From the NCBI GenBank assembly GCA_012960245.1, contig DUBO01000025.1, positions 1 to 34,468 of the forward strand: a stretch of 34,468 nt of DNA. The letters run 5' to 3'. The DNA is from Candidatus Binatota bacterium (GTDB lineage: Bacteria; Desulfobacterota; Binatia; UBA1149). Below the pieces are notes generated by a model. That model did no database searches and was not told where the DNA came from. It saw only the letters and a program-made list of their open reading frames with translations. Shown piece after piece: positions 3,308 through 24,788 of the stretch. The translations under genes were made by a program, and so were the position numbers. The stretch's first letter is position 1. Every line of letters begins with the position of its first letter.

Positions 3308-5047
3308 ATGCACGACCTGGTAATTCGCAACGCAACTGTAGTAGACGGAACCGGCCGCGAGCGCTTTGAAGGCGACGTGGCCATAGACAATGGACGCGTG
3401 GCCGAAGTGGGCCAGGTGGCGGGCAAGGGCGAAGAGGAGATCGACGCCTCGGGTCTGCTGGCGATGCCCGGCTGGGTGGACGTGCACACGCACTACGACG
3501 GCCAGGTCACCTGGGATCCGCTGCTGACGCCTTCGTTCTGGCACGGGGTAACGACCGTGGTCATGGGTAACTGCGGAGTTGGCTTTGCGCCGGCCGCTCC
3601 GGGGCAGCGCGAGTGGCTGGTCGGCCTGATGGAGGGAGTCGAAGATATTCCCGGCACCGCGCTCAACGAGGGCATCCGCTGGGACTGGGAGAGTTTTCCG
3701 GAGTACCTCGACGCGCTCGAACGCTGCCCGCACGCCATCGACGTGGCCGCGCACATTGCCCACGGTCCGGTCCGGGCCTACGTCATGGGCGAGCGCGGTG
3801 CGAGCAACGAGCCGGCTTCTGCCGAAGACATAGCCAGGATGGCCGAGCTGGTGGGCGAGGCCATGCGCGCGGGCGCCCTGGGTTTTTCTTCCTCTCGTAC
3901 GCTGCTGCACGTGGCCATCGATGGCGAGCCGGTGCCCGGTACCTTTGCCGCCGAGGACGAGCTGATGGCCTTTGCGCGGGTGCTGGGCGAACACGGCAGC
4001 GGCATTTTTGAGGTCGCGCCGGCGGGCGTGTCGGGTGAGGATCTGGCTGCCCCCGAAAAAGAGATCGCGTGGATGCAGCGGGTGTCGGCGGCAACCGGCT
4101 GTCCGATCACCTTTCTGCTGGGGCAGAACACTCTCGAGCCCGACGCATGGCGGCGCATGCTGCAACTGTGCGAGCAGGCCGACGCCGAAGGCGCGCGCGT
4201 GTACCCGCAGGTGTTCGGGAGACCGACCAGCCTGCTGTTCAGTTTCGAAGGCGTGAGTCCCTTCGCGCGCTACCCGAGTTTTGCGCCGCTGATGGACATG
4301 ACTCCCGAAGAGCGCATGCCGTTTCTTCGCGACCCATCGTTTCGCGCCAAGGTGTTGTCGGAGAGCGACCCCAACGACGATGTCTTTGCCATGATGATGA
4401 AAGACCCGTGGCAGCAGGCCTTCGAGCTGGGTGACCCGCCCGATTACGAGCCCGACGCTTCGCGCTCGCTGGCGGCGCGCGCGGCCCGCGACGGTGTTGA
4501 TCCGCGCGAACTGGCCTGGGACATAATGCTGGGCGACGACGGGCGCGCTGTGGTGTTATGGGCCCTGCTCGGTTACGCCGACGGTGATCTTGAACCGGTG
4601 CGCGAAATGCTCGAACACCCGCTGTCGGCCGTTGGCGGCAGCGACGGTGGCGCCCACTGCCGCATGATCTGCGACAGCAGCGTGCCTACTTTCCTTCTCA
4701 CGCACTGGACCCGCGACCGCAGCCGTGGCGAGCGTTTGTCACTGGAGTCGGTGGTCAAGAAGCAGAGCCGCGACACCGCGCGCCTTTACGGGCTCGACGA
4801 CCGCGGCGAGATCACCCCCGGGCAGAAGGCTGATATCAACCTTGTCGATTACGACGCGTTGTCGGTTGGCGTGCCGCGCATGGTGTACGACCTGCCCGGT
4901 GGCGCGCCGCGCTTCATGCAGAAGGCGGTCGGCTACAAGGCTACGCTCGTGGCTGGACAGGTGGTGCAACGCGACGGCGAAGACAGTGGCGCACGACCGG
5001 GGCGCGTGGTCAGGGGCGCGCAGCCGGCGTACCAAGCAGGGCAGTAA
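3308..5047 (+). CDS. N-acyl-D-amino-acid deacylase family amidohydrolase
   Basis: A 579-residue metal-dependent amidohydrolase of the D-aminoacylase/N-acyl-D-aspartate (glutamate) deacylase group. The family removes the acyl group from N-acyl-D-amino acids in the cytoplasm. The N-terminal beta-sandwich begins LVIRNATVVDGTG. The metal motif VDVHTHYDGQ gives His60 and His62, and GNCGVG supplies Cys89, the metal-bridging Cys position of D-aminoacylases. The late barrel motif GGSDGGAHC carries Asp446, the expected catalytic Asp. The C-terminal G-x-I-x-PGQKADINLVDYD is typical of the family. The ATG at 3308 is preferred to the GTG at 3272 because the family starts with the LVIRNA strand. The 3' end overlaps the oppositely oriented aminotransferase by 38 bases. 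Exact substrate (D-Asp, D-Glu or neutral D-amino acid) cannot be told; many members of this sequence group are uncharacterised. Confidence 0.85.
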   Translation: MHDLVIRNATVVDGTGRERFEGDVAIDNGRVAEVGQVAGKGEEEIDASGLLAMPGWVDVHTHYDGQVTWDPLLTPSFWHGVTTVVMGNCGVGFAPAAPGQREWLVGLMEGVEDIPGTALNEGIRWDWESFPEYLDALERCPHAIDVAAHIAHGPVRAYVMGERGASNEPASAEDIARMAELVGEAMRAGALGFSSSRTLLHVAIDGEPVPGTFAAEDELMAFARVLGEHGSGIFEVAPAGVSGEDLAAPEKEIAWMQRVSAATGCPITFLLGQNTLEPDAWRRMLQLCEQADAEGARVYPQVFGRPTSLLFSFEGVSPFARYPSFAPLMDMTPEERMPFLRDPSFRAKVLSESDPNDDVFAMMMKDPWQQAFELGDPPDYEPDASRSLAARAARDGVDPRELAWDIMLGDDGRAVVLWALLGYADGDLEPVREMLEHPLSAVGGSDGGAHCRMICDSSVPTFLLTHWTRDRSRGERLSLESVVKKQSRDTARLYGLDDRGEITPGQKADINLVDYDALSVGVPRMVYDLPGGAPRFMQKAVGYKATLVAGQVVQRDGEDSGARPGRVVRGAQPAYQAGQ

Positions 5048-9050: not shown

Positions 9051-9821
9051 TTAAGCCGAAAGTTTTCTTGCGGCGACGATAGTGCTGCGCGCGCACAAGC
9101 TGCGCCAGCTGTTCATCGCCGCGAGGGCCGAGGCGTTGTCGGCCAGCAGGCCGGGGGTCTTGCGCGCCATGCGTCGGTGGGCTTTCCATTCCGACAGCTT
9201 GATCAGTGGCCAGGCCAGCGGCAGCATTGCCAGGGCTGAGGTCTTGAAGCGGTCGTGGTGGTGGGTCACCTGTTCGAAACCGGCCCGCGTCATTCCCCAG
9301 TTCACGTAGTAGGGGTGCATGGGCATTATGTGTCCTGACAGGTAGCGGGCCGACTCTTCGTCGGTGGCCAGGGGCCCGAACAGCATCCAGAAGCCCCGTC
9401 CGGCAAACGCCAGCCTCGAGTTCAGGTTGAGCAGGTTGGGCGTTGTCACCACGGCCAGGCCGCCAGGCTTGAGCACCCGGTAGATCTCGCGCAGGAAGGC
9501 GTAAGGGTTTTCGAGATGCTCGATGACTTCCACCGAGTAAACGCAGTCAAAACTCGCGTCGTCGTAGGGCAGGGAGTCCATGAAACGCATGCCGCGGCAC
9601 TCGACTCCCTCGCAGTCAAAGTAGTCGGGAAACAAGTCGCAGGCTGCCAGCACCTGCCCGGGGTCGAGGCCATCGGCGCGTGCGCGTTCGGCCAGCAGTC
9701 GCGCGAGGTAGCCGTTGCCCGCACCCAGGTCGAGCAAACGACGGTCGCGCAGGCCTCCTTCGGACACCAGTTCGAGTACGCGCGCGTTGGTGGTGGGATT
9801 TGAAAGCGGTTGCGGGTCCAT
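9051..9821 (-). CDS. Class I SAM-dependent methyltransferase
   Basis: A 256-residue methyltransferase of the Methyltransf_11/23 type, transferring a methyl group from S-adenosylmethionine to a small molecule. Motif I is LLDLGAGNGYLARLL (about residues 29-43). The acidic post-I region LAACDLFPDYF, the FDCVYSVEVIEHLENPYAFL segment and the LKPGGLAVVTTPN motif follow in order. The C-terminal part after about residue 150 includes a basic, partly helical segment (WKAHRRMARKTPG), possibly for membrane or substrate contact. The ATG at 9821 matches the family start; the frame extends to 9938 without methyltransferase features. The gene follows the selenoprotein gene on the same strand by 80 bases, so they may share a transcript. 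Substrate unknown. Confidence 0.85.
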   Translation of the reverse strand: MDPQPLSNPTTNARVLELVSEGGLRDRRLLDLGAGNGYLARLLAERARADGLDPGQVLAACDLFPDYFDCEGVECRGMRFMDSLPYDDASFDCVYSVEVIEHLENPYAFLREIYRVLKPGGLAVVTTPNLLNLNSRLAFAGRGFWMLFGPLATDEESARYLSGHIMPMHPYYVNWGMTRAGFEQVTHHHDRFKTSALAMLPLAWPLIKLSEWKAHRRMARKTPGLLADNASALAAMNSWRSLCARSTIVAARKLSA

Positions 9822-9901: not shown

Positions 9902-11107
9902 TCAGCCGGCCTGGCTCGCCGGCATAAGGTAGAACCACAGTGGCTGCGCGACGCCCGCTTCTTTCATGGCCGCGGCGGCGGCGCGTATGACCTTGCCGGT
10001 TTCGGTCTGGCGATAGATCCAGTTCTCGGTCTGCCGCGCTGCAGGCACGTGGTCGGCTAACTGCATGGCCGCCTGCTCGTAGTAGCAGCGCAGGTCATGT
10101 CCGGCGGCCAGGAGGTCGCCACCGGGCACGTCGGCGTCTTCAAAGGGAGTACCGTCGGCTATGCGTATGAAGGCAGCCACGGCGTCGGGTACGGTGTCGG
10201 CCGTGAGCTTTTTGCCGAAGCCCGAGCGCAGGGCGCTTTCGCCGGCGCGTTCGAAGGCCGCGCGCAGGCCGCGTGCTTCTTCAACGGCCGGATGACTGTC
10301 GCCGTCGTGGCGCGGGGGCAGTGGGCAGGACAACTGCTCGGCCTGTTCGTCGAGTATGACCTCGGGGTAATCCAGCAGTACCGGGCCGGTGGGAGCCTCG
10401 AGCATCTCAAAGGCGGCGCGTAGAACTCCGCGCTGAAACTTCGCATCGCCTGGGCGCCCCAGTGGTCGTCCCAGCGGAAACTCACAGTGCAGCATGCGCG
10501 GCGCGTGCACGCGCTCGGCCTGTCCGCGTACAGACGACAGGCTCACTGTCGCAAGCCCTGCCTGCTCAAAAACGTGGGCGAGCACACCAACGGTGCGCGT
10601 GCAGAACGGTCATATGGGGGTGAGCACAACGATGTCGGTTCCGTCGCGCTTGAGGCGTTCGGCGCAGGCAGGCCCACTATCCAGGCGCATGGTTTCAAGG
10701 TTGTGGTCAGGCTGGGCGCCCATGAACGAGTAGTGCAGGGGGGCCACGCTGCCTATGGTGCCGTCGGCCGCCAGTTCGGCCAGTCGCTTGACGGGAAACA
10801 CCACCTCGGGGTCGGCCATAAAACCGCTGCGGTCGAAGTTGGGGCTGAAGTGCGCGAGCGCCAGCTTGTCGGCGTCCACGGGGATCTCGGTGAAGGCCTG
10901 GTCACCGGGCGCCCAGTAGGTGTCGCCGTCCGTGCGCAGGCCGGCGGTTGTCACGATGGCCACCTGGGCCTCGGCCAGCAGTCGTGGTTCGGTGAATGCG
11001 GTGTCGGCGAAGTCGTAAACGGGAATGTCGTTCACGAACTGTCGCAGCAGCACGTCTCCCCGGGGATCGTCGCCCTTTTTCTGGTCTTTCGTCGGCTGGT
11101 CACTCAT
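9902..11107 (-). CDS. GrdB-family selenoprotein (glycine/sarcosine/betaine reductase selenoprotein B-like)
   Basis: One gene of 401 residues if the in-frame TGA at 10612-10610 is read as selenocysteine (Sec166). The frame before it ends DIVVLTPI and the frame after it begins PFCTRTVGVLAHVFEQAGL, giving a U-x-x-C redox motif where homologues carry C-x-x-C or U-x-x-C. Both halves belong to the same family: the N-terminal half with PVYDFADTAFTEPRLLAEAQVAIVTTAGL, the C-terminal half with GVLRAAFEMLEAPTGPVLLDYPE. A SECIS-like hairpin follows the TGA. Classical GrdB reduces glycine, sarcosine or betaine with GrdA/GrdC, but those partners are absent here, and such stand-alone homologues are of unknown substrate; a thiol-redox role is inferred. 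The ATG at 11107 is chosen over the TTG at 11116; no clear Shine-Dalgarno is seen. Automatic callers would report two separate ORFs. Confidence 0.87.
10582..10598 (-). promoter_or_regulatory. Bacterial SECIS-like hairpin for Sec insertion
   Basis: On the minus strand GCGCACC pairs with GGTGTGC (7 bp including one G-U) around the loop GTT. The loop begins with G, 19 bases after the UGA at 10612-10610. A short stem with a G at the start of the apical loop, 16-37 bases after UGA, is the established pattern for bacterial SECIS elements read by SelB. The hairpin lies inside the coding sequence, as bacterial SECIS elements do. Confidence 0.75.
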
Positions 11108-22494: not shown

Positions 22495-22646
22495 GCTTTC
22501 TTTTAGCAGCAGCCGCCGGTCGTGCGCAATTGGGATCGTGCAGCGGTGGCCGACACGGACCCCGTTCCGCGGCCCCCGTGGTCGACGCGGGCCCCCTGGG
22601 AAACGACGCTGTTCCGTGGGCAACGCCGCTGTGGCAAGCTGCCCCC

Positions 22647-24788
22647 ATGCCGCTACATCATCGTGCCTGCAACCTGTGTGAAGCCTGCTGTGGAATCCTC
22701 GTGGAGACCGAGCAGGACCGTGTCGTAAAAATCGAGGGAGACCAGAACGACCCCTTGTCGCGGGGCTACATATGTCCCAAGGTATTTGCGCTCGTCGACC
22801 TGCACGAAGACCCCGATCGCCTGCGTCGTCCGGTGATTCGCGAGGGGGACAGCTGGCGGGAAGTGGAGTGGGACGAGGCCTTTCGTGTCGCCGCGCAGGG
22901 ATTGCACGCGGTGCAGAAAACCGGCGGCCGCGACACTCTGGCCACCTACTTCGGTAACCCCACGGTACACAACCTGCCGGCCCAGTTGTCGGCCGGCATG
23001 CTCATACGCACGCTGGACAGCCAGGTGCGTTTCAGCGCGTCGACGGTCGACCAGTTCCCCCACATGTTGGCGGCCCAGCAGGTATTCGGTGGCCAGTTGA
23101 CCATCGCAGTCCCCGACGTCGACCGCTGCCGAATGCTGATCATTATGGGCGCCAACCCGCTGGCCTCGAACGGTAGCTTCATGACCGCCCCTGGCATCCG
23201 TGGCCGCCTGCGGGCCATACAGAAACGCGGCGGCAAGGTGGTCGTCATCGACCCGCGCCGCACCGAGACCGCGCGCCTGGCCGATCGCCACCTGTTCATA
23301 CGACCATCCACCGACCCGCTGTTGCTGCTGGCCATGCTCAACGTCATTTTTGCCGAGGGCCTGGTTGCGCCCGGCGCGGCCGACGGGCTGATCGACGGCG
23401 CTGAGCTCATCGAACAGCACGCCGCGAACTACACCCCCGAAGCAGTGGAGCTGCTAACGGGAATTGCCGCGGCCGACATCCGCGAGCTCGTCAAGGATTT
23501 TACCGACGAGCCGGCGGCGGCCGTGTACCCCCGCATCGGCACCTGCCTGCAGCCCTACGGCACGCTGGTCAGCGTGCTGTCCCTTGCCGTTAACCTGCTC
23601 ACGGGCAAGGTCGACCGGGAAGGCGGCCTGATGTTTCCCCACGCAGCGATACCCAACCGTTCGCGTGGCAGGTACGGTCGCTGGAAGTCGCGGGTGCGCG
23701 GCATGGCCGAGTTCGCCGGCGAGATCCCGGCGGCCACCATGGCCGAAGAAATGGATACGCCTGGTGAAGGGCAGTTGCGTGGCCTGGTCACGATGGCCGG
23801 CAACCCGGCATTGTCTACGCCCAACGGTCGGCGACTGGAGGGCGCGCTGGAGGGGCTCGATTTTATGGTCAGTCTCGACCCCGCGCTCAACGAGACCACC
23901 AGGTTTGCCAACGTGATACTGCCGCCGAGAAGTTCGCTCATGAATCCGCAGTACAGCCTGGCCTTTCACCAACTGGCCGTGCGCGACACTGCTCGTTTCA
24001 GCCGGCCGGTTTTTGAGGCCGCCGATGGCGACCTGAGCGAGTGGGAAATCAGCCGTGGCTTGCTGTCCGAGCTCGTCCGGCTGCGTAACGAAGACGCCGC
24101 CGCTTCCGGCAGCGAGCCCGAGGCCGACCCCGCCCAGGCCATGTCGGCAACGGTGACCGAGGTGGTCGACATGATGCTCGCCGGTGGTGAGCACGGGCTG
24201 ACGGTTGAGAAACTCTCGGAGCATCCCTCGGGGCTGGACCTGGGTGCGCTCAAGACCGGTGGCCTGGCGCGGGTCGTGCTTCACGACGACGGACGCGTCA
24301 AGCTGGCCGGGGACATGGTCGAGGGAGAGCTCGAACGCCTGGCCGCCGACTTTGCCCAGGGAAGGGTGGGGCAGGTGACTGAGCCCGACGCCGAGGGCAA
24401 CGGCATGTTGCTGGTTGGCCGACGGCACCTGCGGTCGAACAACTCCTGGATGCACAACTGTCCGAGCCTGGCCGAGGGCAAGCCCCGCTGCACGGCGCTG
24501 ATCAATCCGGCTGATGCCTCGCGCCTGGACCTGGCGGATGGGCAGCTGGTTAGCGTTCAGAGCCGCGTGGGCCGGGTGGATATTCCGGTGGAGCTGAGCG
24601 ACGAGATTATGGTCGGCGTGGTAAGCATTCCCCACGGCTGGGGGCACGATCGCCCCGGAACCCGCATGAAGGTGGCGGCAGAAGTCGGTGGCGTGTCGGT
24701 AAATGACCTTACCGACGAGGCCCAGACCGAGGGCCTGACGGGCAACGCGGTGCTCAACGGCGTGCCTGTAACCGTGGCTGCGGCCTGA
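22647..24788 (+). CDS. Molybdopterin-dependent oxidoreductase
   Basis: A 713-residue member of the DMSO reductase superfamily carrying bis-MGD molybdenum (or tungsten) and one 4Fe-4S cluster. The N-terminal cluster motif C-x2-C-x3-C with a distant Cys is seen as Cys8, Cys11, Cys15 and Cys43. The molybdopterin domain includes MGANPLASNGSF and VVIDPRRTETARLAD. The C-terminal dinucleotide-binding domain includes LDLADGQLVSVQSRVG and IPHGWGHDRPGTRMK. RFSASTVDQFP aligns with the region that in nitrate reductases carries the Cys ligand, so Ser130 is the likely metal ligand. No twin-arginine signal is present, so it is probably cytoplasmic. No electron-transfer partner gene is adjacent and the substrate is unknown. 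The ATG at 22647 is chosen because the upstream 39 residues of the open frame are not conserved-looking. Confidence 0.88.
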   Translation: MPLHHRACNLCEACCGILVETEQDRVVKIEGDQNDPLSRGYICPKVFALVDLHEDPDRLRRPVIREGDSWREVEWDEAFRVAAQGLHAVQKTGGRDTLATYFGNPTVHNLPAQLSAGMLIRTLDSQVRFSASTVDQFPHMLAAQQVFGGQLTIAVPDVDRCRMLIIMGANPLASNGSFMTAPGIRGRLRAIQKRGGKVVVIDPRRTETARLADRHLFIRPSTDPLLLLAMLNVIFAEGLVAPGAADGLIDGAELIEQHAANYTPEAVELLTGIAAADIRELVKDFTDEPAAAVYPRIGTCLQPYGTLVSVLSLAVNLLTGKVDREGGLMFPHAAIPNRSRGRYGRWKSRVRGMAEFAGEIPAATMAEEMDTPGEGQLRGLVTMAGNPALSTPNGRRLEGALEGLDFMVSLDPALNETTRFANVILPPRSSLMNPQYSLAFHQLAVRDTARFSRPVFEAADGDLSEWEISRGLLSELVRLRNEDAAASGSEPEADPAQAMSATVTEVVDMMLAGGEHGLTVEKLSEHPSGLDLGALKTGGLARVVLHDDGRVKLAGDMVEGELERLAADFAQGRVGQVTEPDAEGNGMLLVGRRHLRSNNSWMHNCPSLAEGKPRCTALINPADASRLDLADGQLVSVQSRVGRVDIPVELSDEIMVGVVSIPHGWGHDRPGTRMKVAAEVGGVSVNDLTDEAQTEGLTGNAVLNGVPVTVAAA

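Follow-up and report, generated by a model that had tools for sequence, protein, structure and literature searches.

D-proline reductase contains the best-matching relative of the protein described here, its selenium subunit PrdB (TIGR04483; 242 aa with Sec152 in Clostridium sticklandii). In the mechanism proposed for this enzyme, the substrate is held on the pyruvoyl group of PrdA, the selenolate of PrdB attacks the alpha-carbon, and a cysteine of PrdB cleaves the selenoether to leave a mixed selenide-sulphide (PMC3091704). Selenoprotein B of the glycine, sarcosine and betaine reductases (GrdB, GrdF and GrdH; PF07355) possesses a Sec domain of common ancestry. A GrdB-type complex has been predicted to cleave the C–F bond of fluoroacetate, where a Schiff base cannot form (PMC10838667), and a peroxidase activity of GrdB is named in the title of Groebe et al. 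2007, which is cited in PMC3091704. Stand-alone relatives are known as well. Aerobes such as Haematobacter and Roseomonas encode Cys forms annotated as 'glycine/sarcosine/betaine reductase selenoprotein B family protein', with CPxC at the same site. From marine metagenomes, PrdB-labelled UxxC selenoprotein genes have been reported since 2005, with 42 in the Sargasso Sea (PMC1088965); the GOS survey gives 235 Sec and 110 Cys forms of PrdB (PMC2398784), and PrdB makes up 6.4% of marine selenoprotein genes (PMC9402790).

Here we analyze a PrdB-like gene of a Candidatus Binatota bacterium, located in a window of 34,468 nucleotides, by which we mean the whole stretch of DNA that was analyzed (Table 1). 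Readthrough of the single in-frame TGA of the gene joins a first open reading frame to a GTG-started second one, each of which is open by itself, and places TPI-U-PFC at residue 166. Translation returned the coordinates, the frame, the TGA at 10612-10610 and this motif just as an earlier reading, made from the DNA letters without database searches (the sequence-only reading), had given them, and folding returned the geometry of its hairpin, a 7-bp stem whose loop G is located 19 nt downstream of the UGA.

Table 1. Predicted features of the locus; positions refer to the window
Feature	Position	Strand	Details and basis
PrdB-like selenoprotein gene	9902..11107	(-)	401 aa, UGA = Sec166, final stop TGA at 9902-9904 (translation)
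In-frame UGA = Sec166	10610..10612	(-)	TGA column across homologues
Cys169, resolving residue of the U-x-x-C motif	10601..10603	(-)	invariant in alignments A1 and A4
SECIS hairpin: 7-bp stem, GUU loop, loop G at 10591	10582..10598	(-)	fold and covariation
PrdB-homologous domain, residues 42-237	10397..10984	(-)	TIGR04483, E 1.2e-32, 113 bits
C-terminal helical domain, residues 248-401	9905..10366	(-)	no catalogued family or fold match; pLDDT 86; clade support 99/93
SAM methyltransferase, 80 bp downstream of the selenoprotein gene	9051..9821	(-)	Pfam Methyltransf_11; judged a neighbour outside the system

Comparative evidence for selenocysteine at the in-frame UGA

A frame interrupted by a stop codon, with both parts open and a GTG start on the second, may reflect a pseudogene, a sequencing error or two separate proteins divided by a real stop. 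The comparison with homologues speaks against each of these. In a tblastn set of more than 60 loci from five phylum-level groups, every homologue that spans the site, whether long or short, has exactly one in-frame stop, and this is a TGA in the Sec166 column. The set comprises the sister species (94% identical), other members of the class, Acidimicrobiia, SAR202-like Chloroflexota, Pseudomonadales/K189A and Rokubacteria/Methylomirabilota; two loci (L025 and L086) stop short of the Sec166 site and are uninformative on the TGA. A class-wide search likewise has TGA at the site in nearly all matches listed. TGC takes the place of TGA in three homologues, namely those of the aerobic Alphaproteobacteria Haematobacter and Roseomonas and a full-length relative from the window's own class (G100), resulting in CPVC or CPIC (CPxC). 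The PrdB proteins encoded in the prdA-prdB operons of Enterococcus raffinosus and Ligilactobacillus salivarius have TGA at the aligned site, within UGTC. Residue 166, for which the sequence-only reading had proposed an alignment, is thus occupied by Sec (TGA) or Cys (TGC) in the homologues. In a 30-row alignment, 22 residues are invariant, and they are located on both sides of the UGA.

The sequence-only reading had also claimed a SECIS hairpin. This hairpin directly follows the UGA, carries the loop G and shows strong covariation. In a gap-free alignment of 42 sequences, its 7-bp stem has 92.9% standard pairs and 93 double-sided changes, and its covariation score is 0.766 compared to 0.245 after shuffling (none of 500 shuffles was as high) and to 0.04–0.18 for slid pairings. 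In the sister species, the reading frame is maintained downstream of the TGA. Comparison of the window with its locus (L048) gives a dN of 0.025 and a dS of 0.31 downstream of the TGA (dN/dS about 0.08), and a dN of 0.033 and a dS of 0.20 upstream. The scan for selA, selB, selC and selD that the sequence-only reading had suggested found all of them in the window's genome (G000): selA, selB and selD follow one another at C50:190015-194340 (L009, L001 and L087), and a tRNA-Sec was detected with 69 bits, above the gathering score of 47. This selD carries a TGA in its own active-site motif (GGUASK), and SelD is thus itself a selenoprotein.

Since four independent lines, i.e. homologues, SECIS, selection and machinery, agree, we consider it strongly supported that the gene encodes a genuine selenoprotein, as the sequence-only reading had claimed, and that the UGA would be decoded as Sec166 via the adjacent SECIS by the organism's own SelA, SelB and SelD together with tRNA-Sec. 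The recurrence of this TGA across five phylum-level groups and independent assemblies, the purifying selection downstream of it, the covarying SECIS and the Sec machinery leave a pseudogene, a sequencing error or a split into two proteins with a vanishingly small probability; chance or a pseudogene is refuted by the TGA conservation, the SECIS covariation and the dN/dS.

Relationship to PrdB and GrdB and the C-terminal domain

The best curated model for the protein is TIGR04483 (PrdB), which scores 113.3 bits over residues 42–237 and does not reach its cut-off of 300 bits. The curated models of GrdB, GrdF and GrdH score 31–49 bits against cut-offs of 602–800, with alignments starting at profile position ~219 or later, and PF07355 reaches its gathering score (26.1 versus 22 bits) over profile positions 201–345 only. 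All 30 long homologues score like the window protein against these family models. When aligned with the operon-borne PrdB proteins, the UxxC sits at the Sec position of PrdB, reading UPFC where PrdB has UGTC. Hence, the designation as a GrdB-family protein in the sequence-only reading holds insofar as PF07355 matches and the Sec domain shares ancestry with GrdB (26–49 bits), but PrdB is closer (113 versus 31–49 bits) and the N-terminal half of GrdB is absent, the match beginning only after GrdB position ~200. Judged by these profile scores, the protein is closer to PrdB than to GrdB in the strict sense.

The sequence-only reading further held that both halves of the gene belong to one family. 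The PrdB model indeed crosses the TGA, whereas residues ~248–401 fall into no catalogued family; this C-terminal helical domain was absent from its description of the gene. These about 150 residues gave no Pfam or NCBIfam family match in the window protein or the long homologues, and the C-terminal reading frame by itself had zero Pfam matches. An AlphaFold2 model of the whole protein reached a pLDDT of 88.8 and a pTM of 0.89, with a pLDDT of 86.0 for the C-terminal helical part. Sequence search found no solved relative in the PDB. Fold comparison of the whole model returned generic Rossmann-like matches only (Z 7.4 at best), and the best PDB match of the C-terminal domain had a Z of 3.5. A maximum-likelihood tree built from the PrdB part separates the long proteins from the rest by a branch supported at 99/93; some short rows lie on long branches and their placement is unsure. 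The C-terminal helical domain thus marks a well-supported clade of long proteins. Compared to this type, the Haematobacter and Roseomonas proteins have Cys in place of Sec and are without the C-terminal domain of 150 residues.

Missing reductase partners and a known marine kind of selenoprotein

The best match to PrdB, and the alignment of the UxxC with the operon-borne PrdB of E. raffinosus and L. salivarius, would be expected if the protein served a D-proline (or glycine-type) reductase complex as its selenium subunit, with the gene for the pyruvoyl partner located elsewhere or lacking in the assembly. PF09338, which represents the pyruvoyl subunit (GrdE/PrdA), had no match in the window's genome, in G001 and G002, in the f7 relatives, or in G015 and G034, and PF04723 (GrdA) had none in the window's genome, G002, G015 and G034; the same searches do recover full sets in two members of the class, G026 and G033. 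The TIGR04480 (PrdA) profile matched nowhere and, having no positive control, carries no weight on the absence, and PF09338 was used instead. Since the window's genome (2.8 Mb) is about 96% complete, the absence of these partners from it is likely real, and it is also common to the near relatives. It is conceivable that a PrdA/GrdE-type gene is lost from view through the completeness of ~96%, that the partner is too diverged to be recognized, or that the carbonyl cofactor is an unconventional one. The sequence-only reading was therefore right to call the protein stand-alone with respect to GrdA, and the GrdE/PrdA type is likewise absent. Together with the score of 113 bits against the 300-bit cut-off, the extra C-terminal domain and the absence of prd-like genes among the neighbours seen at the relatives' loci, the PF09338 result makes a reductase complex of this kind quite improbable.

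In G026 and G033, GrdA and several GrdE-type subunits occur with GrdB-like genes (L121-L128, L144 and L145), apparently real glycine/betaine-type reductases. A plasmid of Peptoclostridium acidaminophilum DSM 3953 carries a TGA-containing prdB (L147:3977-4690) whose surroundings, over 8.7 kb, contain no prdA; within the stretch examined, an orphan PrdB is thus also found in a cultured amino-acid fermenter.

With pfam07355, UxxC and no partner genes, the window gene fits the stand-alone PrdB-like selenoproteins of the sea, and it is a further member of this already known kind. The sequence-only reading had considered the role of such a protein open because the glycine reductase pathway does not explain it; we agree with this, but stand-alone PrdB-type selenoproteins have long been known and are abundant in the sea. 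The window gene shares motif, Pfam family and marine habitat with the 'PrdB' of the Sargasso and GOS surveys (PMC1088965, PMC2398784), a likeness by description and not by sequence. In their searchable text, these surveys do not distinguish long, C-terminally extended proteins as a clade, and they assign D-proline reduction by name. A literature search for 'PrdB-like' found no paper, and neither the long clade with its extra domain or function nor a doubt on its proline-reductase label was found described in the searchable literature, the supplements of which may hold either.

Gene neighbourhood and paralogues

The neighbouring genes differ between phyla, and no operon partner is conserved across phyla. 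The Chloroflexota loci have shared surroundings of their own, which look like ordinary synteny. The methyltransferase, for which the sequence-only reading had suggested a link, is kept beside the gene in the sister species of the same genus alone, leaving a functional link unsupported.

The window's genome encodes two further, short PrdB-like selenoproteins, at C43:29010-29612 (L129, UPVC) and at C45:36493-37215 (L130, UGYC), and a gene for a luciferase-like oxidoreductase lies immediately upstream of the former. Luciferase-like genes (PF00296) occur within about 1.5 kb of 13 of the 60 selenoprotein loci of the class but of none of 31 other loci, the C43 locus being outside this count. Both observations would suit a partnership with flavin- or F420-dependent luciferase-like oxidoreductases in the breakdown of organic compounds. 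However, the 13 loci include many close relatives or duplicates, housekeeping genes make up most of the control loci, and the comparison is post hoc and uncorrected for relatedness or gene number. Genomes of family f7 contain at least 119 candidate PF00296 genes each, for which we estimate a chance neighbour at about 1 in 8 loci, and no PF00296 gene adjoins the window gene. We thus regard the luciferase-like neighbours as suggestive, a lead at most, and such a partnership as unlikely.

Elsewhere in the window, positions 51-1571 hold a Cys-rich open frame of 506 aa without Pfam match, composed of two similar halves with a threonine-rich run (TTSTTTTT) between them, and positions 22530-24788 encode a molybdopterin oxidoreductase of 752 aa with an N-terminal Fe4S4 domain. 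An amidohydrolase family 3 protein is encoded at 3308-5047; relatives of it are also found close to the selenoprotein gene at L137 and L138, perhaps through abundance alone.

A putative single-gene reaction

The explanation towards which we lean, if only slightly, is that of a stand-alone PrdB relative with an added helical domain, in which Sec166 and Cys169 would perform a partner-free reaction as the function of a single gene. By analogy to PrdB and GrdB, enzymes that themselves depend on a partner absent here, we infer a half reaction of Sec attack and Cys resolution that proceeds without Schiff-base activation, after which cellular thiols would regenerate the protein. The PrdB domain, which is Rossmann-like, would bind a substrate that has an electrophilic carbon or is of peroxide type; the selenolate of Sec166 would attack this substrate, Cys169 would cleave the selenium adduct to form a Se–S bond, and thioredoxin or another cellular thiol would re-reduce this bond. 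With no pyruvoyl subunit, the substrate should need no Schiff-base activation. Most likely, the protein would then cleave an activated carbon-heteroatom bond reductively or act in peroxide-type detoxification.

A function as thiol peroxidase or antioxidant selenoprotein, in which Sec166 reduces hydroperoxides and Cys169 resolves, would agree with the UxxC redox motif, with the occurrence as a single gene without a conserved partner and with the peroxidase activity named for GrdB. Conservation extends far past the UxxC into the large domain and the helical domain, though, which is more than a simple peroxidase needs, and the presence of three diverged paralogues in a genome of this small size points to different substrates. 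We give this function a small, yet not negligible, chance. The sequence data would be equally compatible with a structural, chaperone or regulatory redox role of the protein.

For the long clade as a whole, with its PrdB domain, new helical domain and Sec in every member found, we tentatively raise the possibility of a single-component, pyruvoyl-independent and selenium-dependent reductase of activated carbon-heteroatom bonds in bacteria of ocean and soil. Its hosts are Acidimicrobiia, SAR202-like Chloroflexota, Pseudomonadales, Rokubacteria/Methylomirabilota and the class of the window's organism. Few selenoprotein labels are commoner in metagenomes of the sea than 'proline reductase'; since the pyruvoyl partner is absent, at least the long branch probably does not represent a proline reductase of the known type. 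As the curated models score its genes far below their cut-offs, the long clade needs a family model of its own. With one gene, one Sec, one resolving Cys, a confident structural model and no solved relative found in the PDB, it offers a clear target for enzymology.
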